Positions 4,050 through 47,457 of a stretch of 47,457 nt of DNA are shown piece after piece. The stretch comes from Patescibacteria group bacterium (GTDB lineage: Bacteria > Patescibacteriota > Gracilibacteria > UM-FILTER-43-11): assembly GCA_018813295.1 (NCBI GenBank), contig JAHJBZ010000076.1, forward strand, positions 1-47,457, in the 5' to 3' direction. The position numbers and the translations under genes were made by a program. Position 1 is the stretch's first letter; each line of letters opens with the position of its first letter. Under the pieces are notes generated by a model, which saw only the letters and a program-made list of their open reading frames with translations, was not told where the DNA came from and did no database searches.

Positions 4050-4058
4050 AATATGACG

Positions 4059-24970: not shown

Positions 24971-26370
<1,400 letters not shown>

Positions 26371-29085: not shown

Positions 29086-29192
29086 AAATTACAAAATTAA
29101 TTGGTTTTTTTGTCGTAGAGACGTTGCAATGCAACGTCTCTACGGGGTAATATAATTTTGTAATAAATAATAATTAATTTTGTAATAAGAAA
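29086..29192. repeat. AAAATTACAAAATTAATTGG repeat with GTAGAGACG palindrome
   Basis: Same build as the element at 24969-25092: AT-only outer words and a central palindrome at 29114-29144 (half-site CGTAGAGACGTTGCA), ending just before purL. Confidence 0.8.
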
Positions 29193-31558: not shown

Positions 31559-31662
31559 ATCGAATGGTGGCTCGAATGGTGGCTCGAATAGTAGCTCGAA
31601 TGGTGGACCACAATACGAGCCACAGTGAAGCACGAGCCACAATACGAGCCACAATACGAAGC
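31559..31662. repeat. CGAATGGTGGCTCG hairpin element before holA
   Basis: Repeated CGAATGGTGGCTCG words on the left and CACAATACGAGCCAC words on the right form a long hairpin with centre GGTGGACCACAA. It is a sibling of the element before proA and of the half-element at 1-49. Confidence 0.85.
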
Positions 31663-32682: not shown

Positions 32683-32702
32683 TTAATGTCGGTTAGAAAC
32701 GA

Positions 32703-32709
32703 GTTAGCC
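32703..32709 (+). other. left core site GTTAGCC of cassette 1
   Basis: GTTAGCC followed by AAAATAC, 21 bp after holA. It is the exact reverse complement of the first box (GGCTAAC) of the attC-like site at 42815. The core plus its RAAATAY tail recurs at both other cassette boundaries. A second GTTAGAAAC lies 10 bp upstream, as in attI sites, but no full attI or attC stem is visible here. Confidence 0.55.
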
Positions 32710-32713
32710 AAAA

Positions 32714-32804
32714 TACTGCCCATTTTTCTTTTTATATTAGATAAGTCTTTTAGAACATTTTTAACAATTATTAAGACAAAATACAGGTACTCTTTCATGT
32801 TTTT
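32714..32804. repeat. left inverted arm of cassette 1
   Basis: Shares three blocks with the reverse complement of 42598-42703, in order: TACTGCCCATTTTTC (15 bp), a 26-bp block starting AGTCTTTTAGAACATTTTTA, and a 24-bp block starting TACAGGTACTCTTTCATG. The two stretches between blocks have diverged. Confidence 0.93.
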
Positions 32805-32837
32805 TAATGTAAAATGTTTTTGTAACTTACGAAGCCT

Positions 32838-35800
32838 ATGACTAATTTTATAACAAACGATGATGCCGATGATCTTAAGAAGCGCTTAATTCAGCTCATT
32901 CAAAAGAGTGAAGAGCTAAAATTTCTTGTTGGCTTCTTCTATTTTTCTGGAATCAGAGAACTCTATGAGGGTTTAAAATCAAACCCCGATACTGCAATAA
33001 AAGTTTTAGTTGGCTTAAATGTTGATCGTCATAATTTCGGCCTTATTGAGTTTGCAGACAATGAACAATTATCAGACGAGGAAAAAACTTATAAATTTTT
33101 TGAATCAATAAAAAAATCACTAAATACCGAAAATTTTGATACTCAGGAATTTTATGAACAAGTTAAATTTTTTGTGGAGCTAATTCAAGAAGATAAGCTC
33201 ATTATTCGAAAAACTTTTAATCCAAATCATGCTAAGCTATATCTTTTTCACCTTGAACAAGGGCAGGTGGGTAGGAAAAATTTATTTATTACGGGTAGCA
33301 GCAACCTTACAAAAGCTGGCCTTTCGACTCAAAATGAATTCAATGTAGAAATTGGAGATTATGGCTTTGAAGATGCCGAACAATACTTTGATGTACTATG
33401 GGCGGAAGCTGTGAAAATTACAGAATATGCTGATGTGAAAAACAAACTTATTGAAATAATCGAAAAAGACACTTTAGTTAAGGATATAACGCCATTTGAA
33501 GCGTTTTGTTTAGTTTTAAAAACTTATATAGATTCACGTGGACAAAAAGGAAGTGATGAGTCTATTAAGGGGGTGATGGAAAAGGCGGGTTATATTCCCT
33601 ATCAATATCAAGTCGATGCCGTTAAACAAGCCCTGGGCATGATAGAAGACTATAATGGCGTGATTGTGGCGGATGTGGTCGGGCTTGGTAAAACAATTAT
33701 AGCCTGTTCCATAGCCAGACAGCTTAAAAATCGTGGAATAGTAATTTGTCCACCAGGCCTGACTGGTGATAAGAATAAGGACTCTGGCTGGCAAAAATAT
33801 ATTGAAGAATTTGGTTTACACGATTGGGAAGTTTGGTCACGTGGTGATTTAAAAAATACGTTGAAATTTGTTAATAAAGCAAAAGATATTGATATTATCA
33901 TTGTCGATGAGGTTCATTGGTTTAGAAATCAAGACACAGAAAATTATGAACTTTTAAAAAATATCTGCAGGGAAAAGAAGGTTATTTTATTGACCGCAAC
34001 CCCATTTAACAATCGCCCAGGCGATATCCTCGCTCTTCTCAAGCTTTTTATTATCCCAAAAAAATCATCCATAACCTTGGAAAGTAATTTAGCCGATCAG
34101 TTCCAAAGCTTTAAGGGGTTATTTGACAGGCTTGGTTATATTAAAAAATATTGGGATTCTTCTGACAGTAAAAAAAGAGCCAAGGCGCAAAGCAAATATA
34201 AAGCCTTATTTGAGGAGGATAAAATAGATTTAAAAAAGGTGGCTGGCAAAGCTCGTTATCTTGCAGGCCAAATAAGAAATGTGATTGAGCCAGTAACAAT
34301 TAGGCGCAATCGTTTGGATTTGCAAAATAATCCTGAATATCAAAATGAGGTAAAGGAATTATCGAATGTTGCAGATCCAATTGAATGGTTTTTTGAATTA
34401 ACTAAAGAGCAATCTGAATTCTATACTGAAATAATCGAAGATTATTTTGGTGATGATGGCCGCTTTAAGGGTGCCATTTACAGGCCATTTGAATATGAAA
34501 CAGGCAATAAAGAAGAGAAGAGTGAGGACGAAAATCGGCAATTTCAACAACAGCGCAACTTATTCGACTTCATGCGACGACTGATAGTGAAACGCTTTGA
34601 GAGTTCATTTGGCTCATTTGAACAAAGTATTAAGAATTTCAAAAAAATCACAAAAAAGAGCCAAGAATTCATTCATAAAACAGGAGAATATATTCTAGAC
34701 CGCTCACTTTTAGAAAAAATTTATGAATTGGATGCTGATGAAATTGAAAATTCTCTTCTTGAGTATGAAGAAAGAATAAACAAGGGCGAATATCCAAAAA
34801 ATCACAAACGCTATAAACTTAAAGACTTTGAGGATAAAGATGGTTTTATGGCAGCCTTGGAGTCTGATTTAGAATTATTTGATGAAATTTTAAAAAAGCT
34901 TTCTCAACTAGATTTAATAAAGAATGACCCAAAAACTGCATGTTTAATCGAAAATCTCAAAAAGGAATTTTCACAGAAGCCAAATAAGGGGGAGCCAAAG
35001 CGTAAGATAATCATCTTTACTGAATACGTTGATACAGTAATTTACCTGGAAAAAGCACTCAAAAAAGATTACGGCAGCAAAACGCTTATAGTGGATGGAA
35101 AATTATCAGCCACAAAAATAAAACAGATAGATAGGAACTTTGATGCCTCTTATGCAGAGCAAGATAATGACTTTGAGTTACTGCTGTCATCTGACAAAAT
35201 CTCTGAAGGTTTCAATCTTAATAGGGCTGGAATGGTGATTAATTATGATATTCCATGGAATCCGGTACGAGTTATACAACGAGTTGGACGTATAAATCGT
35301 ATTAGTAAAAAGGTTTTCGATGAGCTAAATATAGTAAATTTTTTCCCAACCGAAAAAGGTGCAACATTGGTACAGTCGCGCGAAATAGCTACTAATAAGA
35401 TGTTTCTTATTCATACTGCACTTGGCGAAGATGCAAAGATTTTTGATATAGATGAGGAGCCAAGCCCATCAGGTTTGTACAATCGTGTTAATCAGAATCC
35501 TGACAAACAAGAGGAGGAAAGTTTTTATACAAAAGCGTTAAAAAAGTTTTTAAAAATTAAGAAGGATAATCCTGAACTTATTGAAAATTTAAAAACTTAT
35601 CCACCTCGCATTAAAGTTGCTAAACATGGAGCCGAAAATGAACTCTTGGTATTCTTTAAAAAGGGGCGCTTGTATGTAAGTGGTGCCCAAACAGATACGG
35701 AAAAAACCGAGCCATTCCAAACGACATTTGAAGATGTTTTTGATCGAGTTACCTGCGCCCCAAAAGAAAAAGCGCTTAATTGGAATAATGAGTCATTTTG

Positions 35801-36149
35801 GCAAACCTATAAGGCAATTCAGATTTTTCGTGATTATCGCCTTGGGCCAACAAATGAACAAAGCCTGGAAATGAGGGCTCAGAACAATCTTGACTATCTG
35901 ATTCGCAGTACTAACGAAAAATTAATGCCCCACAAGGATTTTCTTCGAACCCTTAAGGAAGATGTTTTAGGTTATGGTACTTTGGCAGATTACACATTAC
36001 GTCGAATTGCCAATTTTAAAGAAAATGATGCCAAAGATATTCAGGCTTTAAAAGGTGAAATTGGTGAAGATTATCTACTCAAAGAAAAAGATCGGCAAAA
36101 AGACCAAAAAAAAGAAATCATTATAGCTATTGAGAATAAAAAAATATGA
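32838..36149 (+). CDS. PLD-domain SF2 helicase
   Basis: A 1103-residue ATP-driven DNA helicase/translocase of a defence type. The N-terminal phospholipase D-like domain has NHAKLYLF (His130, Lys132) and GSSNLT (about 153). The SF2/SNF2-like core has Walker A ADVVGLGKTI (277-286), DEVH (355-358), TATPFNN (385-391), then a helicase C domain with FTEYVDTVIYLEKAL, SEGFNLNRAGMVINYDIPWNP and QRVGRINR (about 811-818). A C-terminal region of about 250 residues is not recognised. Its stop overlaps the next start in ATGA, so helicase and methyltransferase are translated together. Confidence 0.88.
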   Translation: MTNFITNDDADDLKKRLIQLIQKSEELKFLVGFFYFSGIRELYEGLKSNPDTAIKVLVGLNVDRHNFGLIEFADNEQLSDEEKTYKFFESIKKSLNTENFDTQEFYEQVKFFVELIQEDKLIIRKTFNPNHAKLYLFHLEQGQVGRKNLFITGSSNLTKAGLSTQNEFNVEIGDYGFEDAEQYFDVLWAEAVKITEYADVKNKLIEIIEKDTLVKDITPFEAFCLVLKTYIDSRGQKGSDESIKGVMEKAGYIPYQYQVDAVKQALGMIEDYNGVIVADVVGLGKTIIACSIARQLKNRGIVICPPGLTGDKNKDSGWQKYIEEFGLHDWEVWSRGDLKNTLKFVNKAKDIDIIIVDEVHWFRNQDTENYELLKNICREKKVILLTATPFNNRPGDILALLKLFIIPKKSSITLESNLADQFQSFKGLFDRLGYIKKYWDSSDSKKRAKAQSKYKALFEEDKIDLKKVAGKARYLAGQIRNVIEPVTIRRNRLDLQNNPEYQNEVKELSNVADPIEWFFELTKEQSEFYTEIIEDYFGDDGRFKGAIYRPFEYETGNKEEKSEDENRQFQQQRNLFDFMRRLIVKRFESSFGSFEQSIKNFKKITKKSQEFIHKTGEYILDRSLLEKIYELDADEIENSLLEYEERINKGEYPKNHKRYKLKDFEDKDGFMAALESDLELFDEILKKLSQLDLIKNDPKTACLIENLKKEFSQKPNKGEPKRKIIIFTEYVDTVIYLEKALKKDYGSKTLIVDGKLSATKIKQIDRNFDASYAEQDNDFELLLSSDKISEGFNLNRAGMVINYDIPWNPVRVIQRVGRINRISKKVFDELNIVNFFPTEKGATLVQSREIATNKMFLIHTALGEDAKIFDIDEEPSPSGLYNRVNQNPDKQEEESFYTKALKKFLKIKKDNPELIENLKTYPPRIKVAKHGAENELLVFFKKGRLYVSGAQTDTEKTEPFQTTFEDVFDRVTCAPKEKALNWNNESFWQTYKAIQIFRDYRLGPTNEQSLEMRAQNNLDYLIRSTNEKLMPHKDFLRTLKEDVLGYGTLADYTLRRIANFKENDAKDIQALKGEIGEDYLLKEKDRQKDQKKEIIIAIENKKI

Positions 36150-39100
36150 GTGAAGCAAGACAAATAATAGATACTATAATCAATAACTTTTCTCCTGATA
36201 AATTCAGTCGTTTTTTTCGTGAAAAAAGTCGTCAATTCAATGCGAATGAAGAAAATTATTCGCGTTATAACGATGATGATTTCAAAAACGGTATAAAAAT
36301 TGGTGAAATTAATTTTCAAGATAATGAAAGCTTGATTGCTTGTGCATTTGAAGTAAAAAAGCCACTTGCTGAACGTACCGGGAAAAAAGCGCAGTACGAA
36401 AAGGCTAAAAGTATTTTAAAGTCTGCCGAAAACCAACGATATTCTGCTGGTATTTTTATTTTTTACGATCCAAATGGCAATTTTCGCTTCTCATTAGTAT
36501 ATCCAGAAGCTATTGGCACCAAAAAACAATGGAGTAATTTTCGTCGATTAACCTATTTTGTGAGTAAAGATTTTACTAATAAAACATTTAAAAAACGTAT
36601 TGGAGATGGAGATTTTTCAACACTAGTCAAAATTAAAGATGCATTTTCGGTTGAAAAAGTTACCAAGGAATTTTATGAAGACATTGCCAATTGGTATTTT
36701 TGGGCAGTTGAACATTGCCAATTCCCCAAAGACGCAGAAGCGGCCGATAACGGCAGAAATATTGCGGTAATACGCCTTATAACCCGCATAATATTTATCT
36801 GGTTTATGCGAGAGAGAGGCTTGGTGAGCAAGGAACTATTTGTAAAAGGGAATATAAGTGAAATTTTAAATAAATTAGAAAGCGAAGAATCAACTTATTA
36901 TAAGGCAATTTTACAAAACCTTTTCTTTGCTACACTCAGCACAAAAAAAGAAGAGCGACAATTTAGTAGCGAAATACGAGGGCACAAAGGTTACAATCCT
37001 GATTTTGGCAATCAATATGTTTTTCGCTATCAAGAGGCTTTTAAGGAGCCAGAAAAAATAAAAGAATACTTCGGTAGCATTCCGTTTTTAAATGGAGGAC
37101 TTTTTGAATGCCTAGATGACAAGCCAAATGGAATTATTATAGACGGATTCTCCCGTGTTAAAAAAAATCAGCCAATCATCCCCAATTTTCTATTTTTTAG
37201 CGCCGAAAAGAAGGCTGATTTGAACACAGCTTACGGCACCAAAAACAAAACCTACAAAGTACGTGGGCTTTTGGATATTTTGTCTTCTTTCAATTTTACC
37301 ATAGATGAAAACTCACCTGATGATGCTGACATAGCCCTTGATCCTGAGCTTTTAGGCCGAGTTTTTGAAAACCTGCTTGCCAGTTTTAATCCGGAAACCT
37401 CTACCACCGCTCGCAAGGCTACCGGTAGCTATTACACGCCAAGGGAAATTGTCGACTATATGGTAGGAGAATCTTTGAAATCGTATTTCAAAACCCACCT
37501 TGAAGAATTAGGCAATATCGACGAAAAGTTAAATAATTTATTGTCCAATGCCAACGATAAAAATCCTTTTAGTGCGAATGACTCCAAAAAGCTCGTAAAA
37601 TTAATCGAAAATGTAAAAATAGTCGATCCTGCAGTCGGCTCAGGAGCTTTTCCCATGGGAGCACTGAATAAACTGGTTTTTATACTGAATAAGGTAGACC
37701 CAGGCAATGAACTGTGGAAGCAAGCTCAAATAGAAGCCGCTGACACAATACCCGACCCAAGTGTACGACGGGAAGCCAAGGCAAAGATCGCAGAATTTTT
37801 TCGCAATAAAAATGCCAACTATGGACGAAAGCTTTTCTTAATCCAAAGATGTATTTATGGTGTGGATATTCAACTAACCGCTGTAGAAATCACAAAATTA
37901 CGCTTTTTTATATCTCTTTTAGTGGACGAGGAAATTGATATAAAAAAAGGAAACTCGGGTATTGAGCCATTACCAAACCTAGACTTTAAGATCATGCAGG
38001 GCAATAGCCTTATTGAGCTGCTTGCCCCTGATCTACTAGCTAAAAATACAGACAGCGAACGTAGCAAACTCATCGATGAACTTAACGTGTGCAAAGACGA
38101 TTTTCTATCTATTTCCGATCCTATAGTGAAGAAAAAATGCAAAGAGCGAATACTGGAACTAGTGAGAACAATTGTTAATTATGACAAAGAGAAAGAGAAA
38201 AAGGAGCTAGAACGAAAATTAGGCTTTTTTAATGAGAAACAAAAGCTGTTCGATATGGCGGGTGACAATCTCGACCTAGACGACGCAGTCACAAAGCAGA
38301 AGGCAAAAATTTCTGCAGAGCTGAAGCAATTGGAAAAAACACAAGCCCTTTCACCAAAAGATCATTTCGAATGGCACCTACATTTTAATGAAGTATTTGA
38401 AAGCGAAGGTTTTGATATTGTAATAGGTAATCCGCCTTATGTAAGCGTTAAGGCAATTTCCGTAAAAGAAAAAAAGGTTTTATGTAGTTCGTTTGTAACT
38501 GGTGAAGGTCGTTTTAATTTATTTACTTTATTTATAGAAAGGGGGTATTTATTGCTTAGGGGTGCAGGAACTTTGACTTTTATTATCCCCGAAGGTATTT
38601 ATTCAAATATCGAATATAGACATACACGTAAATTATTACTTGAAAAAACAAAAATAAACAGATTGTGCCTATTCAGTTCCAGAGTTTTTGAGGCATCTGT
38701 TGACACAACAGTACTTAGTTTTTTAAAAATTCTTAAAAAGAATAAAAATATACCAATTGACAAAGATATTCAAGAAACAGAATTAGTCCTATCGCAAGAA
38801 AAAATATCAAAATATCCATTTAATATATTCCCCACCAAGTTAAAAAAAGAAACTACAAGGCTAATTGATGATGCCATCTTAAGTGATGATTATGACAGAA
38901 TTTTAGATTGCCTTGAGATTCAACAAGGCATAATTTACTCAGGTCAAAAAAAAGAGGATGTATTTTCAAATAAAATCATCAACAAAACTTATAAAAAATG
39001 TTTGGATGGCAGGGATATTCTTAAGTGGTTTATTAATTGGGACGCAAAAATAGAAAACAAATATATTTCCTATACTACACAATTGCATAGAGCGCGCGAG

Positions 39101-39532
39101 GAAAGATTATATTTAGCTAACAAAAAGATATTGATACCAAGAAGAGCTACAACTATCTATGGCACAATTGATGATATGCAATTTTATGTTTTAAATACTG
39201 CATATATTTGTTTGAACAAAAATGAAAAAGATTACTATATTGAATACCTATTGGCACTACTAAACTCAAGCTATATAAATTTTATATATAATCAATTATT
39301 TTTTGGATGGCAAATTACGATACCCGCATTAGAAATACTTCCAGTTAAAAAAATTAACAAAGCAAATCAAGAAGATTTTAAAGTTATCGTAGAGAAAATT
39401 ATTTTAGCTAAAAAACAAAATATTAAAGTTGATATAAGTACTTTTGAAAAGCAAATTGATCAAATGGTTTATAAACTCTACGAGCTGACACCGGAAGAAA
39501 TTCAAATAGTTGAAAAATCATTACCTAAATAG
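36146..39532 (+). CDS. Eco57I-like adenine methyltransferase with N-terminal nuclease-like domain
   Basis: A 1128-residue single-chain restriction-modification type protein. The N-terminus has D59...E69-V-K71 (ACAFEVKKPL), a plausible PD-(D/E)XK active site. The methyltransferase domain begins near 430 with TGSYYTPREIVDYMV and carries SAM motif I VDPAVGSGAFPMG (about 492-504) and IVIGNPPYVS (about 757-766), the N6-adenine NPPY motif. A C-terminal target-recognition-like region ends at about 1120. A translationally coupled PLD-helicase partner makes this a two-gene defence unit resembling, but not matching gene for gene, DISARM/BREX/type IIG arrangements. Confidence 0.88.
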   Translation: MSEARQIIDTIINNFSPDKFSRFFREKSRQFNANEENYSRYNDDDFKNGIKIGEINFQDNESLIACAFEVKKPLAERTGKKAQYEKAKSILKSAENQRYSAGIFIFYDPNGNFRFSLVYPEAIGTKKQWSNFRRLTYFVSKDFTNKTFKKRIGDGDFSTLVKIKDAFSVEKVTKEFYEDIANWYFWAVEHCQFPKDAEAADNGRNIAVIRLITRIIFIWFMRERGLVSKELFVKGNISEILNKLESEESTYYKAILQNLFFATLSTKKEERQFSSEIRGHKGYNPDFGNQYVFRYQEAFKEPEKIKEYFGSIPFLNGGLFECLDDKPNGIIIDGFSRVKKNQPIIPNFLFFSAEKKADLNTAYGTKNKTYKVRGLLDILSSFNFTIDENSPDDADIALDPELLGRVFENLLASFNPETSTTARKATGSYYTPREIVDYMVGESLKSYFKTHLEELGNIDEKLNNLLSNANDKNPFSANDSKKLVKLIENVKIVDPAVGSGAFPMGALNKLVFILNKVDPGNELWKQAQIEAADTIPDPSVRREAKAKIAEFFRNKNANYGRKLFLIQRCIYGVDIQLTAVEITKLRFFISLLVDEEIDIKKGNSGIEPLPNLDFKIMQGNSLIELLAPDLLAKNTDSERSKLIDELNVCKDDFLSISDPIVKKKCKERILELVRTIVNYDKEKEKKELERKLGFFNEKQKLFDMAGDNLDLDDAVTKQKAKISAELKQLEKTQALSPKDHFEWHLHFNEVFESEGFDIVIGNPPYVSVKAISVKEKKVLCSSFVTGEGRFNLFTLFIERGYLLLRGAGTLTFIIPEGIYSNIEYRHTRKLLLEKTKINRLCLFSSRVFEASVDTTVLSFLKILKKNKNIPIDKDIQETELVLSQEKISKYPFNIFPTKLKKETTRLIDDAILSDDYDRILDCLEIQQGIIYSGQKKEDVFSNKIINKTYKKCLDGRDILKWFINWDAKIENKYISYTTQLHRAREERLYLANKKILIPRRATTIYGTIDDMQFYVLNTAYICLNKNEKDYYIEYLLALLNSSYINFIYNQLFFGWQITIPALEILPVKKINKANQEDFKVIVEKIILAKKQNIKVDISTFEKQIDQMVYKLYELTPEEIQIVEKSLPK

Positions 39533-39546
39533 TAAAATTCATCCCC

Positions 39547-39765
39547 ATGCAAAGATATAATTTTAATGACATCTTTAGGGAGAATGCAGATGGCACTCTC
39601 ACACCCAAGAGAACCATACAACTTGGTGCAGCAACCCTTGGATCAAGTGTCACTTTTGGGCAGGGGGTATCTTTCGGAGGAGTTAATATTTTTCAATTCA
39701 AGGGGGCAGACATTGCCGGTGAAGAAGATAGTGGTGTTCTGGTAATAAAAGGATTTTATCAATAA
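39547..39765 (+). CDS. small protein of 72 residues, unrecognised
   Basis: Starts 14 bp after the methyltransferase stop, so it is probably in the same operon. The sequence is glycine- and phenylalanine-rich with short beta-type words (LGSSVTFGQGVSFGGVNIFQFKGADIAGEED) and no membrane segment. No family recognised. It may be an accessory of the helicase-methyltransferase pair; position is the only support. Confidence 0.55.
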   Translation: MQRYNFNDIFRENADGTLTPKRTIQLGAATLGSSVTFGQGVSFGGVNIFQFKGADIAGEEDSGVLVIKGFYQ

Positions 39766-39771
39766 TAACTT

Positions 39772-40179
39772 ATGAAGGATAAATTTATATCACTAGAAGA
39801 GGCCCAGAAAAATCAATCAGGAAATATTCCTGAACTTGATGACATGAATTCCCGTATAAAAGATCTGGAAAAAAAGATTAGCAATATTGAAAAGGGGGCA
39901 GAAAGGGCGCACGAACAGAATAGATCATCTTCAAATTTTATAATGTGGATAGTCGGAGCCATTGCGCTAGGCTTCCTTGTAATAATTACTCAGGTTTCCC
40001 TAGACTATTTTAAAAACAATCAAGAAAGATATGAGAAATTTATAAATAAAACGGAGGAAATAAGATCGGATTATTATTCAAAAAAAGAACTAGATTCCGC
40101 ATTGAATGAAACTAAAAATACTGCAGAAATTTTGAATTGTATTAAGACGAAAGGGTATTTTTCAATGAAATGTTTTTAA
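39772..40179 (+). CDS. coiled-coil membrane protein
   Basis: 135 residues: an N-terminal coiled coil (DMNSRIKDLEKKISNIEKGAERAHEQ, about 24-49), one membrane helix (FIMWIVGAIALGFLVIITQVSLDYF, about 56-80), then a second helical, charged segment. It starts 6 bp after the previous small gene. Single-helix coiled-coil proteins are frequent partners in defence operons, but the role here is unknown. Confidence 0.65.
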   Translation: MKDKFISLEEAQKNQSGNIPELDDMNSRIKDLEKKISNIEKGAERAHEQNRSSSNFIMWIVGAIALGFLVIITQVSLDYFKNNQERYEKFINKTEEIRSDYYSKKELDSALNETKNTAEILNCIKTKGYFSMKCF

Positions 40180-40197
40180 TAGATTGATAGCTACATC

Positions 40198-40965
40198 ATG
40201 TCTCAATACTACAACAGCCAGCGTAGCCGCAATATCTACAATCCAAACTCAAAAGAGCCGTTCAAGCTCAGCCGATCCAAGATAGAAAATTTCATGAACT
40301 GCCCACGATGTTTTTACATCGATCGCCGACTGGGTGTCGGGCAACCGCCGGGCTATCCGTTTAATTTAAATTCCGCAGTCGACAAACTCCTTAAGAAAGA
40401 ATTCGATAAACACCGCACTGCAGGCACTCCACACCCTATAATGGTGGCAAATAACATTGATGCTGTACCTTTTGTACACGAGATGATGGACGAGTGGCGG
40501 GAAAATTTTAAGGGTGTACAGTTTTTACATGAGCCCACTAATCTGCACATTACAGGCGCAGTGGATGATGTTTGGGTAAAACCGGACGGAGAACTGATCG
40601 TGGTCGACTACAAAGCCACCAGTAAGGCCGAGGAGATCACAGGACTCGATAAAGACTGGCAGATCGGTTACAAGCGCCAATCCGAAATTTATGAGTGGCT
40701 TTTGCGCATGAACGGTTTTAAAGTCAACGACACCGCCTATTTTGTTTATGCTAACGGTGACACGGAAAAAGGGGGTTTTGATAATAAGCTCGAGTTCGAC
40801 ACCCGCTTAATCCCCTACACCGGCAATGCCGACTGGGTGGAACCGGCTCTTTTTGAAATCAAAAAATGCCTGGATTCGGATAAATTACCAGAGAGCGGAG
40901 ATGATTGTGATTTTTGTTTGTATCGGGAATCGGTAGGAAGCGCAACTCAAGGCTTTGCGTCATAA
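40198..40965 (+). CDS. Cas4-like PD-(D/E)XK nuclease
   Basis: 255-residue nuclease of the PDDEXK_1/Cas4-RecB type. LSRSKIENFMNCPRCFY holds Cys35 and Cys38; the nuclease core has D124, then D137-Y-K139 in ELIVVDYKATS, and the QSEIY motif (Gln161, Tyr165). A C-terminal DDCDFC supplies two more cysteines, so a four-cysteine iron-sulfur site is likely. Codon and base use look GC-richer than the helicase and methyltransferase before it, so its link to them is uncertain. No CRISPR array or cas1/cas2 is nearby. Confidence 0.85.
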   Translation: MSQYYNSQRSRNIYNPNSKEPFKLSRSKIENFMNCPRCFYIDRRLGVGQPPGYPFNLNSAVDKLLKKEFDKHRTAGTPHPIMVANNIDAVPFVHEMMDEWRENFKGVQFLHEPTNLHITGAVDDVWVKPDGELIVVDYKATSKAEEITGLDKDWQIGYKRQSEIYEWLLRMNGFKVNDTAYFVYANGDTEKGGFDNKLEFDTRLIPYTGNADWVEPALFEIKKCLDSDKLPESGDDCDFCLYRESVGSATQGFAS

Positions 40966-41334
40966 AATTGACTTTAGGCTGATTCTGTGCTAAAATTCCC
41001 GAGCCTTTTTCGATAAGATTAAGGTATCTCCTTAGGTAGGCTTGAAGCATGAATACATGCAAAAAGCTAAACGCCATAAGGGGGCCGCCATCTGTCGGTC
41101 GGAGGAACCAATATTTTCGAAAGAAAATAGAAGTCACCCTCTATCAGAAGGAATGTCATCAAAACTTTCCGAAACTTGGAGGTTGGGGCGAAGGGAAACT
41201 TTTACCCCACCTCCACGCCCCAGCGGAAGGGAAACCAGCCGCCGAGGGGAAAAGAAAAGAAAACATTCCGCAAACGGAGGCAAGCCTATTTTAAAAAAAG
41301 GGCTTGCTTTCCCGAGCCTTAAACCAGAACTCAA
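40966..41334 (+). ncRNA. candidate structured RNA upstream of the reverse transcriptase
   Basis: 369 bp with no convincing gene. The part from about 41013 to 41310 is G/C- and purine-rich with several helices: GGAGGTTGGGG (41178-41188) against CCCCACCTCC (41205-41214), or alternatively GGGGCG against CGCCCC (41216-41221); then GCAAGCC/GGCTTGC (41280-41307). AAGGGAAAC occurs twice (41191 and 41227). TTCCCGAGCCTT occurs near both ends (about 40996 and 41309), framing the segment as a direct repeat. Placement immediately before an RT gene suggests a template or cofactor RNA. Confidence 0.4.
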
Positions 41335-42591
41335 ATGCCAATAATCGATCAATTAATAAATCAGGATTTATTAACGAAGCACTGGAACAAAATCTACGCC
41401 CAAAAATCAGAAGAAAAACGCTGGACATCAAGGGGAATAGACGACATCTCATTGAAAGATTTCGTGAAAAAAGAAGATGAAAATCTTAATATACTATTCG
41501 TTTCACTTGAAAAGCGGCTTTTTAGTTTTAGCCCTGCCAAAATTGTTAGAATTGAAAAACCAGATGGTGACGATAGATTTTTAGCTGTTCCGACTGTAAG
41601 AGATCGCATTGTCCACAGTGCGATACTAGAGATCCTAACAAGTATCTTTTATCCGCACATTAATACAGGCGTAAGTTATTGCGGTGTTAAACAGCAATTC
41701 AACAAAAAGGAAGATAGAGCACTAAATATACAAAAGGCTGTTATCAAGTTCATTGGACATGTCAAAAACGGGAACTTTTGGATATTCAAATCGGACATTA
41801 ACAAATTTTTTGACTTTGTTCCTAAGCAAAAGATGCTTGATAAAATTTTTTCAATTTTGCCAGACACCAGCCTAAACGATTTTATAAAACAAATTATTTA
41901 TTTTGAAATTGGGAACCTGGAAGAATTAAAACGCAAAAAATACCCTATTCCAAACCCTAAATTGGGTCTGGCTCAGGGGTCATCACTGTCACCTTTATTT
42001 TCCAACCTCTATTTAGCAAATTTCGATAAAAAAATGCCATTGTTATTCAATGACAGATTTATTAGGTACGCAGATGATTTTATAGTTGTTTGCAAAACGC
42101 AAAAAGAGGCAAAAGAAGCACAGCTAGAAGCCGAAAAGAACTTAAAAAATGAAGGTCTTTTACTTTCTCCTAAACCCAGCAAAACAAAAACTATAAATTT
42201 ATTGCAAAATAAAAATATTGATTTTTTAGGTCTAAATGTAAGCAGATTTACAATCAAACCAAGGCAAACTAAGGCTGAAATCAATAAATGGTTAAATGAG
42301 GACGTATTGAATTTTAAAAAAAATAAATATAAGTCCAAAAAAATAAAAAATCGTAAAACTGGTAAAATCAAAAAAGTCTCGGTGATCGAGCAAGTCAATG
42401 AAAAAATACAAGGTTGGTCTAATTTTTATAGGAGTTATCATGTCGATGATTTATATAATCAAATCAACAGATCTCTAACCCAAATATCGGAGAAAAATAT
42501 AAATTTAAAACTCTTGCAATTATTAGAACCGATTAAGCATAAAGGAATTCCAGATGAGCAAGAATGGCAACAGTACTTTAAAATCAATTGA
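41335..42591 (+). CDS. group II-intron-like reverse transcriptase
   Basis: 418-residue RNA-dependent DNA polymerase. RT motifs are visible: SRGIDDISLKDF (RT0/1), FLAVPTVRDRIVHSAILEIL (motif 2), KSDINKFFDFV (motif A), LAQGSSLSPLFSNLYLANFD (motif B), RYADDFIVVC (motif C, YADD about 244-247) and IDFLGLNVS (motif D/E). The C-terminus has IQGWSNFYRSYHVDDLYNQINRSL, similar to the start of maturase domain X, but no HNH endonuclease domain. No intron domain V or VI follows: the right inverted arm begins 6 bp after the stop. It is therefore a stand-alone RT in a defence cassette rather than a mobile intron. Confidence 0.85.
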   Translation: MPIIDQLINQDLLTKHWNKIYAQKSEEKRWTSRGIDDISLKDFVKKEDENLNILFVSLEKRLFSFSPAKIVRIEKPDGDDRFLAVPTVRDRIVHSAILEILTSIFYPHINTGVSYCGVKQQFNKKEDRALNIQKAVIKFIGHVKNGNFWIFKSDINKFFDFVPKQKMLDKIFSILPDTSLNDFIKQIIYFEIGNLEELKRKKYPIPNPKLGLAQGSSLSPLFSNLYLANFDKKMPLLFNDRFIRYADDFIVVCKTQKEAKEAQLEAEKNLKNEGLLLSPKPSKTKTINLLQNKNIDFLGLNVSRFTIKPRQTKAEINKWLNEDVLNFKKNKYKSKKIKNRKTGKIKKVSVIEQVNEKIQGWSNFYRSYHVDDLYNQINRSLTQISEKNINLKLLQLLEPIKHKGIPDEQEWQQYFKIN

Positions 42592-42597
42592 AGTCAA

Positions 42598-42703
42598 AAA
42601 AACATGAAAGAGTACCTGTAAAAAGGAAAGTTCTTGTTTGAAATACAAAAAATTGTTAAAAATGTTCTAAAAGACTTTTGTTTAGATTGAAAAATGGGCA
42701 GTA
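42598..42703. repeat. right inverted arm of cassette 1
   Basis: Inverted partner of 32714-32804 with the same three blocks; the arm ends GAAAAATGGGCAGTA. It starts almost at the RT stop codon. Confidence 0.93.
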
Positions 42704-42814
42704 CTCCTTCGCTCTCCACCTTCGCTAAAGCTACGGCGGATCGCTCGGCCCCACTGCGTTCTCGCCATGCGTACCCTATTTGATATAATAATGGATGTAC
42801 GCATGACTCGGGTC
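42704..42814. other. GC-rich stretch between right arm and attC
   Basis: 111 bp with no gene. It contains CATGCGTAC/GTACGCATG (42768-42803 region) as an inverted repeat around an AT-rich TTGATATAATAATGG. The word CCACTGCGTTC is shared with the loop of the second attC-like site, so this may be the remnant of another attC. Confidence 0.35.
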
Positions 42815-42902
42815 GGCTAACAGCAGTATATGTGGCTTATTACCTCAGCTCGGTAAACGCCCATATTGCTATCGCAACATCACATATACTGCAACGTTGT
42901 AC
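42815..42902 (+). other. attC-like recombination site 1
   Basis: GGCTAAC (42815-42821) and GTTGTAC (42896-42902) are the outer boxes; a 12-bp perfect stem GCAGTATATGTG/CACATATACTGC (42823-42834, 42881-42892) is separated from them by unequal unpaired bases (A against AAC), as in attC folds. The terminal loop has a small TACC/GGTA hairpin. The AACAGCA and GCAACGTTG words at its ends recur in site 2. Confidence 0.7.
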
Positions 42903-42970
42903 GAAATATGCTTTTCCTTTTACGGGCTATCGCCCGTTCACTTTTCCACAAGGTCAATTTCTTTTTTCTT
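42903..42970. repeat. left inverted arm of cassette 2
   Basis: Matches the reverse complement of 44461-44527 in TATGCTTTTCCTTTTA and in CACTTTTCC(A/G)CAAGGTCAA followed by TTTCTTTTTT. Between these blocks this arm has the hairpin ACGGGC-TATC-GCCCGT; the other arm has a different hairpin at the same spot. Confidence 0.9.
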
Positions 42971-42990
42971 TTTGAAAGAGGGGGAATATA

Positions 42991-43024
42991 GTGTTTCCTC
43001 CGCAAAGCTCCGGAAACGCTTTTT
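42991..43024 (+). terminator. terminator-like hairpin before the methyltransferase-like gene
   Basis: GTGTTTCC pairs with GGAAACGC (one G-T pair) and is followed by five T. It would stop transcripts entering from cassette 1, just before the cassette 2 promoter. Confidence 0.55.
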
Positions 43025-43026
43025 AA

Positions 43027-43055
43027 TTGAAATTTGGCTTAAATTAAGCTATAAT
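43027..43055 (+). promoter_or_regulatory. promoter of cassette 2 gene
   Basis: TTGAAA (43027-43032), 17-bp spacer, perfect TATAAT (43050-43055), 22 bp before the ATG. Cassettes usually lack promoters; this one does not. Confidence 0.65.
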
Positions 43056-43077
43056 TAACAGATTAACATATAGAAAT

Positions 43078-44385
43078 ATGGCAAAAAATAGAGATAAACC
43101 TCCTATTGAAGACAAGACAAAAGCACTGGATTCATCAAACAAAATAAAACAAAATGAAGATCATATTGCACTCACTGAACAAACAAGTGAAGTTCGAGAA
43201 GCAGTAGCGTCAATCACAAAAGAAACATGGAGAAAAGAACAAGAAAAAAGATATCGAGATTTGTTTGGAGATATAGAGGTAGAAGCCATTGTTGACAAGG
43301 AGTATTATGAACGAATATTTGCACAAATAAAAAAACGCTTGTTGCAAGATTTTTCTGATCTTGAAAATAAACGGAATAATTTAACATTTAATGAATTTAA
43401 ACAAGAAATAAGAGATCAATATTCAGGAAATGAAGAAATGTTAAAATTTTGGGATCAACAATTTTCAAGAATGGAATTAGATTATCAGCAGGAGATAGAC
43501 AAATGGGAAATAAAATCTCAAAAAGCCCTTGAAAGATTTAATGAAGAATTAGATAGGGACCCATTCTCTTCCGGATATATATATCCAGAGCAGGATAAAA
43601 AACGGATTGATAATAAGATTGGACAACTGAGAGCAAGTGATCCATGGGCTGTGGCATGTATTAGGACTTTCACGAATCGAGATTATTATGAAGAAGAAAG
43701 TTCTCCGGAGTATTTAGATGGACCTACTGATTCGCTATATTATATTGCCTCTTTTTTAAAGGGTGAGTTATTAGATGAACAAGATTTATTCGAAGATATT
43801 CAAGAAACACTTAAAGGCAAAAAAATACTAATTCTAGGTGATGATATTGGTACAGTATCAGGGATACTTAGACAATATGGTGCTGAAAGTTATGGAGTTG
43901 AAATAGATAAGTTAAAAGTAGCTATTGCTCATTCGGGAATTCTTGCCAAAGGGCAAAAGCCACAAACCCAAGTGATTGAAGGAAATATAGGAGACATAGT
44001 GAAGGAAGAAGATACGGCGCTGTTCCAACGACTTAAGGATCTGAGCCCTTTTGACATGGTTTATTCGTACCGCGTATTTAATCATGGATCAGGACTGGAA
44101 AGAGAATTACCCTTTGAGCAAAGTGCTGAAATTGATACTGACCCCAGCAAACTCATTGATTTAGAAAATTTTCAAACATTAATGAAAAGAAAGTTTGATG
44201 CTTTGCTTAATGAAAACGGCTTGCAGTTACATATTGGAGTGAATAGAAATCTCGAATACCTATTTCCAGCAGAGTATAGTGACAGAGGCGACATGTGGTT
44301 AACCGCAGTAAATAAAGAAGACACAGCCGGCGAAGGTGATTCCTTTATGTTAATTCCTAAAAAAGGAAGAAATTCACAGGAATAA
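43078..44385 (+). CDS. coiled-coil protein with Rossmann methyltransferase-like domain
   Basis: 435 residues. Residues 1-170 are highly charged and helical (KEQEKRYRDLFGDIEVEAIVDKEYYERIFAQIKKRLLQ), likely coiled coil. Residues about 240-340 form a class I SAM-methyltransferase-like fold: KILILGDDIGTVSGILRQYG (motif I), YGVEIDKLKVAIAHSG (acidic end of strand 2), QVIEGNIGDIV and FDMVYSYRVFNHG in the place of motif IV. The usual catalytic NPPY or DPPY is not present, so it may be a sensor or a methyltransferase for a non-DNA target. The sole gene of cassette 2. No named family. Confidence 0.65.
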   Translation: MAKNRDKPPIEDKTKALDSSNKIKQNEDHIALTEQTSEVREAVASITKETWRKEQEKRYRDLFGDIEVEAIVDKEYYERIFAQIKKRLLQDFSDLENKRNNLTFNEFKQEIRDQYSGNEEMLKFWDQQFSRMELDYQQEIDKWEIKSQKALERFNEELDRDPFSSGYIYPEQDKKRIDNKIGQLRASDPWAVACIRTFTNRDYYEEESSPEYLDGPTDSLYYIASFLKGELLDEQDLFEDIQETLKGKKILILGDDIGTVSGILRQYGAESYGVEIDKLKVAIAHSGILAKGQKPQTQVIEGNIGDIVKEEDTALFQRLKDLSPFDMVYSYRVFNHGSGLERELPFEQSAEIDTDPSKLIDLENFQTLMKRKFDALLNENGLQLHIGVNRNLEYLFPAEYSDRGDMWLTAVNKEDTAGEGDSFMLIPKKGRNSQE

Positions 44386-44408
44386 TTTCAAATCGTAGGT
44401 ATTAAGGA

Positions 44409-44457
44409 GTTGGCGGGGCGCAATTCACCCTCTAACCCCCTCTTGCGCCCCGCCAAC
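44409..44457. terminator. strong hairpin after the methyltransferase-like gene
   Basis: 15-bp perfect arms beginning GTTGGCGGGGCGCAA (44409-44423) with the complement at 44443-44457, loop of 19 nt, then an A-rich tail instead of T, so it may be an insulator or a terminator for the opposite strand. Confidence 0.55.
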
Positions 44458-44460
44458 ATT

Positions 44461-44527
44461 GAAAAAAAGAAATTGACCTTGCGGAAAAGTGATTTTCTTT
44501 CAGAAAATAAAAGGAAAAGCATACATC
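44461..44527. repeat. right inverted arm of cassette 2
   Basis: Inverted partner of 42903-42970, ending AAAAGGAAAAGCATACATC directly against the attC box GTACAAC; its internal hairpin is ATTTTC/GAAAAT. Confidence 0.9.
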
Positions 44528-44633
44528 GTACAACAGCACGATATCCGGTTCGCGCTTGGCTAACGCCAAATGCTCACCCAAATTTTCACTCCACTGCGTT
44601 CCGTGAAAACTTCGGATATCGGCAACGTTGGCC
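44528..44633 (+). other. attC-like recombination site 2
   Basis: Outer boxes GTACAAC (44528-44534) and GTTGGCC (44627-44633); inner stem CGATATCCG/CGGATATCG (44539-44547, 44613-44621); long loop with TTGGC/GCCAA and TTTTCAC/GTGAAAA hairpins. It shares AACAGCA at the left and GCAACGTTG at the right with site 1. Its last box is followed by GAAATAC, the same boundary tail. Confidence 0.7.
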
Positions 44634-44751
44634 GAAATACATTTTTACTATTCCCTTTTTACCACTCCGCTTTTCGGACTTTTAATAAGGAAGGGGCGAA
44701 TTGATTCTTTTTTTATAAGGGGGGGCTGTCTGCCTCCGGCAGCCAGTAAGG
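44634..44751. other. left end of cassette 3
   Basis: AT-rich DNA beginning GAAATACATTTTTACTATTC, likely the left inverted arm by analogy with cassettes 1 and 2; its partner would lie outside the window. It ends with a CTGCC/GGCAG hairpin (about 44729-44741). Confidence 0.35.
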
Positions 44752-44791
44752 ATGTTTTCTCCCGCTACAAAGAGCGGTCGAAAACATTTTT
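44752..44791. terminator. hairpin at the end of the caspase gene
   Basis: ATGTTTTC/GAAAACAT outer stem (44752-44759, 44780-44787) with inner CCGCT/AGCGG. The T run is on the plus strand, but the position just past the minus-strand stop codon suggests it also closes the caspase transcript. Confidence 0.55.
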
Positions 44792-45755
44792 ATATTCTTT
44801 TGTCATTCACGAGTTTCCAATAATGAAATCCTAAAGATGTTAGCTTGCAAGCCTTTGATTCCATAGCTGCAAAATACATATATTCAGTATTAACTGGGAC
44901 GATCAATCCAACACTTTGGAATTTCTGTAAATTTTTGAAAACACTTACATTTTCTGGTTTAGCATATGGTTCAACCACAACATGCTTGATATTCTCCGCG
45001 TTCGTATCTTCATATGATGGATTCAACTTAAATTCATCTTGTGGACTTGGGAAATATTCGACTATTTTCCTCAAAATATCTAAAGGAACTTGTGGAACTA
45101 TTGTTCGCAGAGAAGTAAATCTTGTTACATTTGTTTTAAATACTGGCCTTTGTTGCCAAGCACCAAGAGCTTGATCAATGTATGCATAAACTCCACCTGG
45201 TGAAATTTCTCCTCTTAAATCTGCAGCACCACCTTGAAGTGCAGAAAGTAATAAATTTGTAAAAACGCCATGCCCATTTATTTCCATTGCAGGCTCGTCA
45301 TCTCTACTTGCAGTCAAAATAGAAACACCTTCGTGTAATTGGGATAAATCTGCGTTAATATTTGGAGAACCCATGACCCCTGAATGGCAACAGTCAAAAA
45401 TTATAATTTTATCTTTAGCTTTTGACGCATTTGCTAATTGCAGTATTTCATACATTGAAATACCCTCATCATATTTTGCATGATCTGGTGTTACCAGATA
45501 ACCGCCGATTTCATTTAAGAACCCATGACCGGAAAAGTACAACAAAACCGTATCGTTTGTACCTGAAAAAAGTTCAACAATCATTGTTTTTAACACAGAT
45601 TTGGTTTGAACATCTGTTTCAAGCTTAACATCAAAGTTTGGCGAACCATCGCCATTAGTTTCTAAAATTGCTGCAACAGCAGACGCATCATTGATACATC
45701 CACGCAAGGGCGCGGTTGGGTAAGCATTGATTCCTACAACTAAAGCTTTTTTCAT
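44790..45755 (-). CDS. caspase-like (C14) protease effector
   Basis: 321 residues. The caspase-fold N-terminal domain (1-230) begins KKALVVGINAYPTAPLRGCINDA, with the catalytic histidine in YFSGHG (His77) and cysteine in IFDCCHSG (Cys123). ILTASRDDEPAME follows, as in metacaspase-like bacterial proteases. The C-terminal part (about 265-321), VFKNLQKFQSVGLIVPVNTEYMYFAAMESKACKLTSLGFHYWKLV, looks like a small winged-helix or sensor domain. The gene lies 12 bp downstream of a TIR-like gene on the same strand. In the described type IV Thoeris system a TIR-made cyclic ADP-ribose isomer activates a caspase-like protease that degrades cell proteins; this pair fits. Confidence 0.88.
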   Translation of the reverse strand: MKKALVVGINAYPTAPLRGCINDASAVAAILETNGDGSPNFDVKLETDVQTKSVLKTMIVELFSGTNDTVLLYFSGHGFLNEIGGYLVTPDHAKYDEGISMYEILQLANASKAKDKIIIFDCCHSGVMGSPNINADLSQLHEGVSILTASRDDEPAMEINGHGVFTNLLLSALQGGAADLRGEISPGGVYAYIDQALGAWQQRPVFKTNVTRFTSLRTIVPQVPLDILRKIVEYFPSPQDEFKLNPSYEDTNAENIKHVVVEPYAKPENVSVFKNLQKFQSVGLIVPVNTEYMYFAAMESKACKLTSLGFHYWKLVNDKRI

Positions 45756-45767
45756 AATTAAAATGTT

Positions 45768-46178
45768 TTAAAGTTTATTCAATTCGGCAACAATATCACT
45801 GATGTTCCATTTCAAAATGGACGCTCCATTTTCTCTCAAAGGAGCTGGGACAATATGGTTTTCGTCCTTGTAGATCCGCACACCAAACACTTTTTTATCC
45901 AAACTATAAGCTGTATTTAATTCCCATAAAACAGCCTCTCTTTTATATGTATTTTCACCAAAAAGACAAATCGTTACAGAAGTTTGATTAATTCTTTCTT
46001 TACAATTTGTTTTCCATTTCTCATCAAAAGGTTCATTCACCGAGTAATTAACAAACTCCAAATCAAATTTATCGCTTTTTGCCTGTTCGCATAATAGGGT
46101 TTTAGCGTGTAAATCATCCATGTGAAAACTAATAAAAACTCTCTTCTTTGACTTTTGAAAGACGGTTCCGTAAGACAT
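45768..46178 (-). CDS. TIR-like (ThsB type) signalling protein
   Basis: 136 residues from ATG 46178. The domain begins KRVFISFHMDDLHAKTLL and has TSVTICLFGENTYKREAVLWELNTAYSLDKKVFGVRI. The glutamate of the expected NADase site is Glu86 in LWEL. The pattern is the ThsB/MTH538 TIR-like family (PF08937), whose members make cyclic ADP-ribose signals on infection. A longer reading from 46268 would add a hydrophobic N-terminus, but a promoter (TTGACA-17-TAACAT) lies inside that stretch, so transcripts begin after the longer start. It is the first gene of the minus-strand pair. Confidence 0.83.
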   Translation of the reverse strand: MSYGTVFQKSKKRVFISFHMDDLHAKTLLCEQAKSDKFDLEFVNYSVNEPFDEKWKTNCKERINQTSVTICLFGENTYKREAVLWELNTAYSLDKKVFGVRIYKDENHIVPAPLRENGASILKWNISDIVAELNKL

Positions 46179-46209
46179 AATTAGTAATGTTAAGAATAAA
46201 ACTAAACCG

Positions 46210-46238
46210 ATGTTATCAAACTCAAATACATGTGTCAA
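46210..46238 (-). promoter_or_regulatory. promoter of the TIR-caspase operon
   Basis: On the minus strand consensus TTGACA (46238-46233), 17-bp spacer, TAACAT (46215-46210), about 32 bp before the chosen ATG. The -35 is overlapped by the imperfect inverted repeat GTGT...ACAC (46232-46250), a candidate operator. Confidence 0.65.
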
Positions 46239-46260
46239 GAAATAATACACTAAATACAGT

Positions 46261-46289
46261 TTGACCAAATAAGACGCATTTGATACAAT
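46261..46289 (+). promoter_or_regulatory. promoter of the LexA-like gene
   Basis: TTGACC (46261-46266), 17-bp spacer, TACAAT (46284-46289). Transcription would begin about 7 bp before the ATG, giving a very short leader. Confidence 0.65.
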
Positions 46290-46302
46290 CCAAGCATCCT
46301 CA

Positions 46303-46947
46303 ATGAAAATACCTATGTTGTCAGTACAAAATAAAATTCTGGCATTACTTCGCGACCAAGGCTCCGTACCTTTGAAGTACCGAGAAATTGGTCGTCGTAT
46401 TGGCGAACAATATCCGCAAACGGTAAAGCATCACATTGCAATTTTAAAAGATAAGCAGCTTATTCAAGAAAAAAACGGCTTGTTAGTTCTAAACAAAAAA
46501 GATCTCACAAGTGAAACTTTTCTAAATCTCCCTTTTTATGGAATAGCAAATTGTGGTCCAGCTACAACTTTTGCAGAAGATCGGATTGAAGGATTCATCA
46601 AAATATCAAAAAATGCTTTCCCAAAGGGTAACGTACAAGATTTTTACTTAATTCAAGCCTCTGGCAACTCAATGAACCTAGCACAAGTAGGACAAAGCAA
46701 AAAAAATATTGAAGACGGCGATATTGTTATTGTAAACGCAAAAGAACAGAGCCCACAAAACGGTGATTATGTTGTTTCCATAATAGATGGCTGTGCAAAT
46801 ATAAAGAAATTTAGCTATAATCCAAATGATGAACAGGTCGTTTTAATTTCAGAATCAACCGATAAATATTTCCCAATCGTACTTCACAAAAACGATGATC
46901 TGAATATTGCAGGAAAAGTTATCGATGTCCTAAAAATTTCTAATTAA
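46303..46947 (+). CDS. LexA/UmuD-like S24 self-cleaving regulator
   Basis: 214 residues. N-terminal winged helix (1-60: KILALLRDQGSVPLKYREIGRRIG...TVKHHIAILKDKQLIQ). C-terminal S24 domain: cleavage site Cys84-Gly85 in IANCGPAT (Cys-Gly as in UmuD rather than Ala-Gly as in LexA), nucleophile Ser123 in SGNSM, general-base Lys168 in CANIKKF. Such proteins are cleaved on RecA filaments after DNA damage, releasing repression. It is divergent from the TIR-caspase operon and 6 bp upstream of a restriction gene, so it probably represses one or both. Its target operator is not proven. Confidence 0.87.
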   Translation: MKIPMLSVQNKILALLRDQGSVPLKYREIGRRIGEQYPQTVKHHIAILKDKQLIQEKNGLLVLNKKDLTSETFLNLPFYGIANCGPATTFAEDRIEGFIKISKNAFPKGNVQDFYLIQASGNSMNLAQVGQSKKNIEDGDIVIVNAKEQSPQNGDYVVSIIDGCANIKKFSYNPNDEQVVLISESTDKYFPIVLHKNDDLNIAGKVIDVLKISN

Positions 46948-46953
46948 AATATT

Positions 46954-47457
46954 ATGGCAAACGAAAGAAAAACCGAAATAATCACAAGAGATCACTTTTC
47001 CCAGTTTTTGGATACTGTTTATATTGAAGAACAGCGCTCAGATAATCCAAAAATTGATAAGTTACTTAAAACCGCCTCAAAAAAAGGTGGCGGAAAAGGT
47101 TATCCTGAATTTATAATTAGTTACAAAACAAATCCTGATTTATTGATTGTTATTGAGTGTAAAGCTGATGTAACAAAACACGAAAGCAAAGATCGTGATA
47201 AATATTCGGAGTTTGCTGTTGATGGCGCTTTACTTTATGCTTCATATTTATCAAAAGGATTTGATGTTTTGGCAATCGCAGTTAGTGGCGAAACAAAACA
47301 ATCCTTAAAAATTTCTCATTTTTTGCATTTAAGAGATGAGAAAAAAGCTACTCCAATTTTCGGAGATAAATTTTTATCCGTTGATGATTATTTGAATGGA
47401 TATTTAAAAAGTCCTGAAAAATTTAGACAAGATTATAATTCACTTTTGGACTTCACG
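46954..47457 (+). CDS. PD-(D/E)XK restriction protein, truncated by the window
   Basis: 168 residues without a stop codon; it continues past the window. The nuclease motif is clear: P61-D62 followed by E68-C69-K70 in PDLLIVIECKAD. The FSQFLDTVYIEEQRS start and KSPEKFRQDYNSLL resemble the N-terminal restriction domain found in single-chain restriction enzymes fused to N6-adenine methyltransferases. Only the nuclease domain can be seen here. It follows the LexA-like gene by 6 bp, so the two are co-transcribed. Confidence 0.8.
   Translation, partial: MANERKTEIITRDHFSQFLDTVYIEEQRSDNPKIDKLLKTASKKGGGKGYPEFIISYKTNPDLLIVIECKADVTKHESKDRDKYSEFAVDGALLYASYLSKGFDVLAIAVSGETKQSLKISHFLHLRDEKKATPIFGDKFLSVDDYLNGYLKSPEKFRQDYNSLLDFT

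Follow-up and report, generated by a model that had tools for sequence, protein, structure and literature searches.

Why would gene cassettes carry long inverted arms just inside their ends, and are such arms a peculiarity of one locus or a property of the system to which it belongs? The question is raised by contig JAHJBZ010000076.1 (assembly GCA_018813295.1), a stretch of 47,457 nucleotides from a Patescibacteria group bacterium of the Gracilibacteria, which is referred to here, in its full length, as the window (all window coordinates are on the + strand). Its sequence indicates that the window holds three cassettes of a Patescibacteria integron-type system, in succession behind a copy of the attachment site attI at holA. 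Comparison with arrays from other genomes confirmed that the arms are real and a general property of the cassettes predicted for this system. The explanation that we favour overall, with a probability of roughly 0.6, is that these would be armed cassettes of an integron-type system, whose inverted repeat, complete only in the excised circle, would present the cassette recombination site attC.

Inverted arms at the ends of the window cassettes

Cassette 1 (~10.2 kb, 32703-42896) has its left arm at 32714-32805 and its right arm at 42597-42703, and the three conserved blocks attributed to these arms in a preliminary description of the locus are indeed present: TACTGCCCATTTTTC (15 bp, 32714-32728 and, inverted, 42689-42703), a second block of 30 nt matching at 97% (32743-32772 and 42648-42677) and a third of 24 nt matching at 100% (32782-32805 and 42597-42620). 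In cassette 2 (~1.7 kb, 42896-44627), the arms (42896-42967 and 44463-44534) form a gapless 72-bp alignment, which runs through the GTTGTAC core on the left and reaches the R'' box on the right, in agreement with the initial observation that they touch the boxes at both ends. The hairpins reported at equal positions but with different sequences were also found, as ACGGGC-TATC-GCCCGT at 42922-42937 and ATTTTC-TTTCA-GAAAAT at 44492-44508, and in an orthologue of this cassette from another genome the arms have changed jointly on both sides. Beyond these two visible cassettes, the array includes a third, the 5' part of which (44627-47457) continues beyond the contig end; its left arm lies at 44627-44714. 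The local alignment scores of the arms of cassettes 1, 2 and 3 (43, 39 and 35, respectively) are far above the maxima obtained with shuffled sequences (17, 16 and 13).

For cassette 3, the prediction was made first that a partner arm with an R'' box GGCCAAC would be found elsewhere in the genome. A BLAST search of the same genome with the left end of the cassette led to a small contig, C10 (E 1.6e-6), which, when reversed, begins with 59 bases identical to the window. Genes come next, followed by the inverted arm, which aligns over 81 columns, then by a side hairpin rich in GC, and finally by GGCCAAC with a hairpin of attC type. The partner arm is located at ~227-304 of the corresponding locus (L026, reverse strand), and the 59 exact bases are common to window positions 47072-47130 and L026 positions 4030-4088. 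The sequences diverge after this overlap, and C10 may therefore come from a variant strain; the divergence probably reflects a difference between strains, including a deletion that affects the restriction-methylase region of cassette 3. With the partner arm found on C10, all three window cassettes are armed.

The arms are not accounted for by terminators, given that the region contains 12 terminator-like sites compared to 9.4 ± 3.4 in shuffles and that the paired arms extend far past one such site; a single terminator-like site falls on the mid-arm hairpin in the left arm of cassette 2. A transposon with terminal inverted repeats would encode a transposase between them, but none was found when the larger genes in cassettes 1 and 2 and in the visible part of cassette 3 were inspected. 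Adjacent cassettes abut, with their boundary sites in common.

Boundaries and recombination sites of the window array

The left boundary of the array, directly after holA, is a copy of attI (32684-32703; TAATGTCGGTTAGAAACGA followed by G). The 17 bases before the crossover GTT (ATGTCGGTTAGAAACGA) are identical in this copy and in the integrase-adjacent attI on another contig of the same genome, C52, and AACGA directly precedes the crossover GTT in three other arrays too. Because its left end carries the 17 bases of the C52 attI, the window array is bounded by attI without a neighbouring integrase, and the left end of cassette 1, previously read as an attC, is reassigned to attI. In another genome of the same class (L083, 1471-3274), an integrase gene stands tail to tail with holA, the insertion neighbour of the window array.

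The first cassette site, attC1 (42815-42902), comprises R'' GGCTAAC (42815-42821), R' GTTGTAC (42896-42902) and, as judged from its predicted fold, L'' GCAGTATATGTG (42823-42834) and L' CACATATACTGC (42881-42892). Sequence and fold also delimit a GC-rich side-hairpin insert (42704-42814) that extends from the right arm to attC1 and ends in ACTCGGGTC. Such a hairpin, ~60-110 bp long, separates the arm from attC in cassettes 1 and 3, and its counterparts (GACCCGAGC... in reverse) lie between R'' and the arm at many right ends of the family ('class B'), these two included. The second site, attC2 (44528-44633), has R'' GTACAAC at 44528-44534 and R' GTTGGCC at 44627-44633, and its interior aligns with the family as GGTTC..CACCCAAATT..AACTTC around two internal hairpins. 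Its start had first been placed at GGCTAAC 44558; we moved it to 44528 because GTACAAC is complementary to the core of the same cassette and agrees with the alignment of the family. In 3/3 window cassettes, R'' and the 5' core of the same cassette are exactly complementary: GGCTAAC and GTTAGCC (32703-32709) in cassette 1, GTACAAC and GTTGTAC in cassette 2, and GGCCAAC (on C10) and GTTGGCC in cassette 3. This is as expected for cassettes that pass through a circle.

A family of attC sites across the phylum

Alignment of 28 sites yielded a common form, which reads TACATC, R'' (RYRYAAC), A, an 11-bp L stem, GTT, hairpin A, CACCCAAATT, hairpin B, AAC, an unpaired dinucleotide, L', RAAC, R' (GTTRYRY) and GAAATA; the L stems are mostly perfectly paired, with the dinucleotide left unpaired on the L' side. 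A covariance model built on this form (R1), including the TACATC and GAAATA hexamers and leaving the arms out, was applied to 380 genomes sampled from the phylum, which we infer, in part from named relatives of the integrase, to be Patescibacteria; 64 of them contained sites. The 71 loci searched contained 239 model sites, in tandem and in one orientation, with inverted R and L boxes and cassette ends at GTT. The window sites attC1 and attC2, both of which are training sites of the model, scored 65 bits (E 3e-13) and 84 bits (E 7e-18), respectively. When folded as single strands, the sites are predicted to form the R box more readily on the bottom than on the top strand (medians 0.99 and 0.93).

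Arrays elsewhere were reached by a cassette-start pattern. A reversed control pattern gave about ten matches too, and many single pattern matches are therefore due to chance. An earlier pattern meant for neighbours, GGCTAAC...CAACGTT, retrieved only the two window sites, and AACAGC...GCAACGTT was uninformative in 18 genomes of the order. The preliminary description had considered a distinct mobile element with attC-like ends; the ends are attC-like, but they belong to a widespread integron-type system with integrase, attI and arrays rather than to one special element.

Generality and covariation of the arms

Candidate cassettes were defined by consecutive R1-located sites in draft genomes (n = 149), with boundaries that depend on the model, and sites missed in between would lower the following figures. 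The variable positions of the own R'' and R' boxes were complementary at 4/4 in 84 of the 149 cassettes and at 3 or 4 in 117, compared to 5.7% at 4/4 for mismatched pairs. Beyond the R box of the 84 cassettes, without any selection for arm matches, offsets 7 and 8 pair, offsets 9-10 almost never do (5-15%), and at offsets 11-23 own ends are complementary in 50-64% of cases against 22-48% (mostly 22-35%) for mismatched ends. Since the model holds the TACATC and GAAATA hexamers but no arms, the result for the offsets past the hexamers is not circular. Own arms exceeded the 99th percentile of mismatched pairs in 57% of these cassettes by gapped alignment and in 51% with wider windows and a stricter null; at the 95th percentile, the proportion was 83%. 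In the general layout, R'' is followed by two positions that pair and by a conserved 2x2 mismatch, in which CA stands opposite AA (from TACATC...GAAATA). Next come arms of ~14 to 100 bp, which vary in sequence between cassette families while keeping their complementarity and are often interrupted by hairpins. Named Gracilibacteria (L110) and Peregrinibacteria (L101, L103) are among the bacteria with armed cassettes, and arm strength rises with cassette length (Spearman 0.40, p 1.7e-4).

The absence of arms from other cassettes of an array would speak against their generality. The outcome is graded: all three window cassettes are armed, as are about half or more of those elsewhere, and cassettes of classical integrons are unarmed. 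Covariation was assessed on 54 arm pairs with at least 9/14 matches, a selection that inflates the percentage paired; the score was 0.762, whereas shuffled pairs gave 0.169 and slid structures 0.127-0.218, and double changes were counted in 418 cells. This bears out the original suggestion that the arms are maintained as structure and not as sequence. Mid-arm hairpins of differing sequence, first noticed in cassette 2, recur in other cassettes as well: at offset ~20-52, 24% of the left arms and 20% of the right ones contain a stem of at least 6 bp, compared to 3.5% of shuffled sequences, and both arms carry a stem of at least 5 bp in only 10/55 cases.

These patterns bear on the idea that the arms have no function of their own and are left over from the making or copying of cassettes, by fold-back copying or by homogenisation between the ends. 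The end modules of cassettes 2 and 3 recur on other cassettes with different cargo, and the ends have therefore been copied and exchanged, which favours this idea; gene conversion, likewise, could keep the arms similar. Neither decay nor homogenisation, however, would lead one to expect block-wise conservation with unalignable spacers, and unrelated hairpins at matching places of both arms and a constant 2x2 mismatch are equally unexpected, so that we regard a mere by-product as improbable.

Inverted blocks around a tyrosine-recombinase core are also known from the arms of phage attP sites, a resemblance that would suit sequence-specific binding of a protein, either the N-terminal domain of the integrase or a host factor, to inverted copies flanking the core. 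The mismatched-pair scores showed that arms of unrelated cassettes have no common sequence above background and that complementarity alone is common to them, which makes a shared sequence-specific protein very improbable indeed. A GGGCA motif common to arms was considered; its enrichment was only weak and we make no claim for it.

Arms match within a cassette and not across an array

Classical integron cassettes served as a control, in the form of 42 cassettes with 4/4 R boxes from 20 loci beside classical IntI genes of Pseudomonadota; about half of them come from one dense array (L291), and their sites were located by a folding heuristic rather than by a model. Their own complementarity extends over 9-12 bp and then drops to background level, and none of the 42 had arms above a threshold of 14 (2.4% by the wider test). 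Within the Patescibacteria arrays, the two arms that face each other across an arrayed attC, namely the right arm of one cassette and the left arm of the next, exceeded this threshold in 0/103 cases, compared to 41% for the own ends of a cassette. As neighbouring arms are mismatched, pairing around an attC could take place only in the circle or across one cassette. The proposal that the arms flank the attC of the circular cassette is thereby upheld: as both arms come from a single cassette, an attC lies between them only once that cassette has been excised as a circle, or where its ends are brought together.

A short integrase adjoins the arrays

Tyrosine recombinases of the XerA/integron-integrase family are found, in divergent orientation, beside arrays in three other genomes (G327:C23, G269:C3 and G265:C39). 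The genome of the window has one next to a site on contig C52, but none adjoins the window array itself. Named relatives of the integrase come from Peregrini-, Nomura-, Moran-, Pacei-, Dojka-, Wolfe-, Magasanik-, Gracili-, Falkow- and Kuenenbacteria and from WWE3, and in 11 named loci of the candidate phyla radiation (CPR) attC-like sites lie inside the fetched integrase flank. IntI proteins are distinguished by an extra domain around patch III (Messier and Roy 2001, cited in PMC9668308). This ~41-residue insert is missing from the CPR integrases beside arrays: the spacing from KGxKDR to HxLRH is 58-60 residues in those measured versus 100-101 in classical IntI, and ~43 residues are missing relative to the Vibrio cholerae IntI structure 2A3V. 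In a maximum-likelihood tree, classical IntI proteins form one clade (100/99) and the CPR integrases stand apart (93/92) with one Spirochaetes protein among them; other short integrases fall beside the CPR group, and the branching order of the groups lacks resolution. The 7-mer attI core predicted from the first attC was found in 4/4 testable arrays (a count that leaves out a fifth, L102), 88-140 bp from the integrase start and preceded by AACGA.

Possible function of the arms

In the reading that we favour, the short integrase, lacking the IntI insert, would act as integron integrases do, excising and inserting the bottom strand in its folded form. Extrusion of the long inverted repeat from the supercoiled circle would hold attC in a cruciform, such that the free circle would be the preferred substrate for insertion at attI, and arrayed sites, having no matching arm, would remain quiet. 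Mismatches within the arms show no G.T preference by strand (89 vs 88), as would be the case for an inverted repeat of duplex DNA; this speaks against a hairpin formed in RNA. An RNA hairpin was rejected on account of this lack of wobble bias and because no RNA family matched in an Rfam search of the window.

The same data would also fit an end-to-end pairing of the integrated cassette, the main rival of the cruciform. Here the arms would pair across the single-stranded DNA of one cassette, joining the flanking attC sites in a panhandle and favouring precise excision of a single cassette. That the arms are the two ends of one cassette suits such a synapsis, as does the growth of arm strength with cassette length, expected if a longer loop needs closing. 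The pairing would require single-stranded loops of up to 10 kb, though, and there is no G.T bias to the bottom strand, which pairing on one strand would allow (for DNA, a weak argument). On balance we consider it unlikely.

Several points weigh against the cruciform reading itself. The R box of the single-stranded site is predicted to fold without help from the arms, with mean probabilities of 0.97 without them, 0.96 with them and 0.92 with shuffled flanks, so the arms are dispensable for that step and at most guard against misfolding; the initial notion of an extended hairpin that merely stabilises a single-stranded attC is thus abandoned. Up to half of the cassettes fall below the strict arm threshold, and long arms are therefore not essential for all. 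The correlation with length is compatible with both models, and the entire case for recombination, circle and cruciform is built from sequence.

Relation to known systems

The arrays resemble integrons (class 1, Vibrio sedentary chromosomal and, in PMC9668308, archaeal) in that a divergent tyrosine recombinase and attI accompany cassettes that follow one another in the same orientation, and in having attC sites with R'', L'', L' and R', an own R'' complementing the own 5' core and a crossover at GTT. They differ in an integrase without the IntI-specific insert, in attC sites with an 11-bp L stem, a branched top and the conserved CACCCAAATT between two hairpins, and in cassettes with a conserved 2x2 mismatch, long cassette-specific arms and a size of up to 10 kb with several genes. 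Integron attC sites have extrahelical bases on the R''-L'' arm (PMC2727003), which were not seen here, the unpaired dinucleotide of the Patescibacteria sites being on the L' side. Like clusters of attC sites lacking integrases (CALIN), the window array has no adjacent integrase, but it begins at an attI copy and the integrase is on another contig of the same genome. By sequence, the best structural and profile relatives of the integrase are XerA-type tyrosine recombinases (PDB 5hxy; NCBIfam NF040815), from which the CPR proteins differ in adjoining attI/attC arrays and in their IntI-like (K/R)SPL-like tails. Arrays of Paenibacillaceae with short integrases (L116, L128, L161) share the CATC-RYRYAAC...GTTRYRY-GAAA signature and an adjacent insert-less integrase, but have ~6-8 bp after the mismatch and no long arms, as seen by eye in few cassettes. 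Weaker matches to the attC model occur near insert-less integrases in these three loci and in Treponema (L119).

The arms had been said to belong to no described cassette class, and no account of Patescibacteria integrons or of armed cassettes was found in the literature searched, in which subscription journals and preprints are largely outside the coverage, so that novelty is provisional. We tentatively propose, at somewhat less than even odds, a separate and widespread integron lineage in which structure-specific recombination would proceed without the IntI insert and the cassettes' own arms would make only the free circle highly recombinogenic. If true, this would be a built-in switch by which large multi-gene cassettes, often with defence genes, could enter the array and then remain fixed in it. 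Much gene capture is driven by integrons, which are known for the spread of antibiotic resistance, and the arms point to a control of mobility carried by the cassettes themselves, which would set the time at which captured genes move. Activity has been said to require the IntI insert, and an insert-less cassette system would make the origin of single-stranded attC recombination testable; searches requiring the insert would presumably miss the CPR integrases. With restriction-modification, other candidate defence and metabolic cargo, such arrays may account for much of the gene exchange among these tiny, mostly uncultured bacteria, which make up one of the largest groups of bacteria.

Cassette cargo and other features of the window

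At up to 10 kb, the cassettes far exceed the usual size of integron cassettes. Cassette 1 encodes a PLD-SNF2 helicase, a type IIG-like methylase, small proteins, a PD-(D/E)XK protein and a group II-like reverse transcriptase; the last of these, within 41000-42591, has a weak maturase-domain match, and a long GC-rich stretch upstream of it (~41000-41330) could be a structured RNA, to which no Rfam family fits. The single 435-aa protein of cassette 2 (43078-44385) had no match in Pfam, PADLOC, NCBIfam or PHROGs, and parts of it read like a methyltransferase. The visible genes of cassette 3 include caspase-like, TIR/ThsB-like, S24-like and further genes. In other genomes, cassettes of L061 combine a methylase with helicase or nuclease-like genes, read from their translations as restriction-modification systems; L058 has a HpaII-type restriction enzyme with a methylase, and further cargo comprises ABC transporters, a Fic protein and metabolic genes.

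Outside the array, palindromes resembling repetitive extragenic palindromic (REP) elements (GTAGAGACGTTGCAATGCAACGTCTCTAC and similar) lie between housekeeping genes at 25020-25052, 28984-29014 and 29113-29145. Tandem repeats of 12 bases (TCGAATGGTGGC) occur at gene starts at 31560-31606 and around 27561, where they give rise to N-terminal VAR-repeats in the predicted HolA and a proA-like protein.

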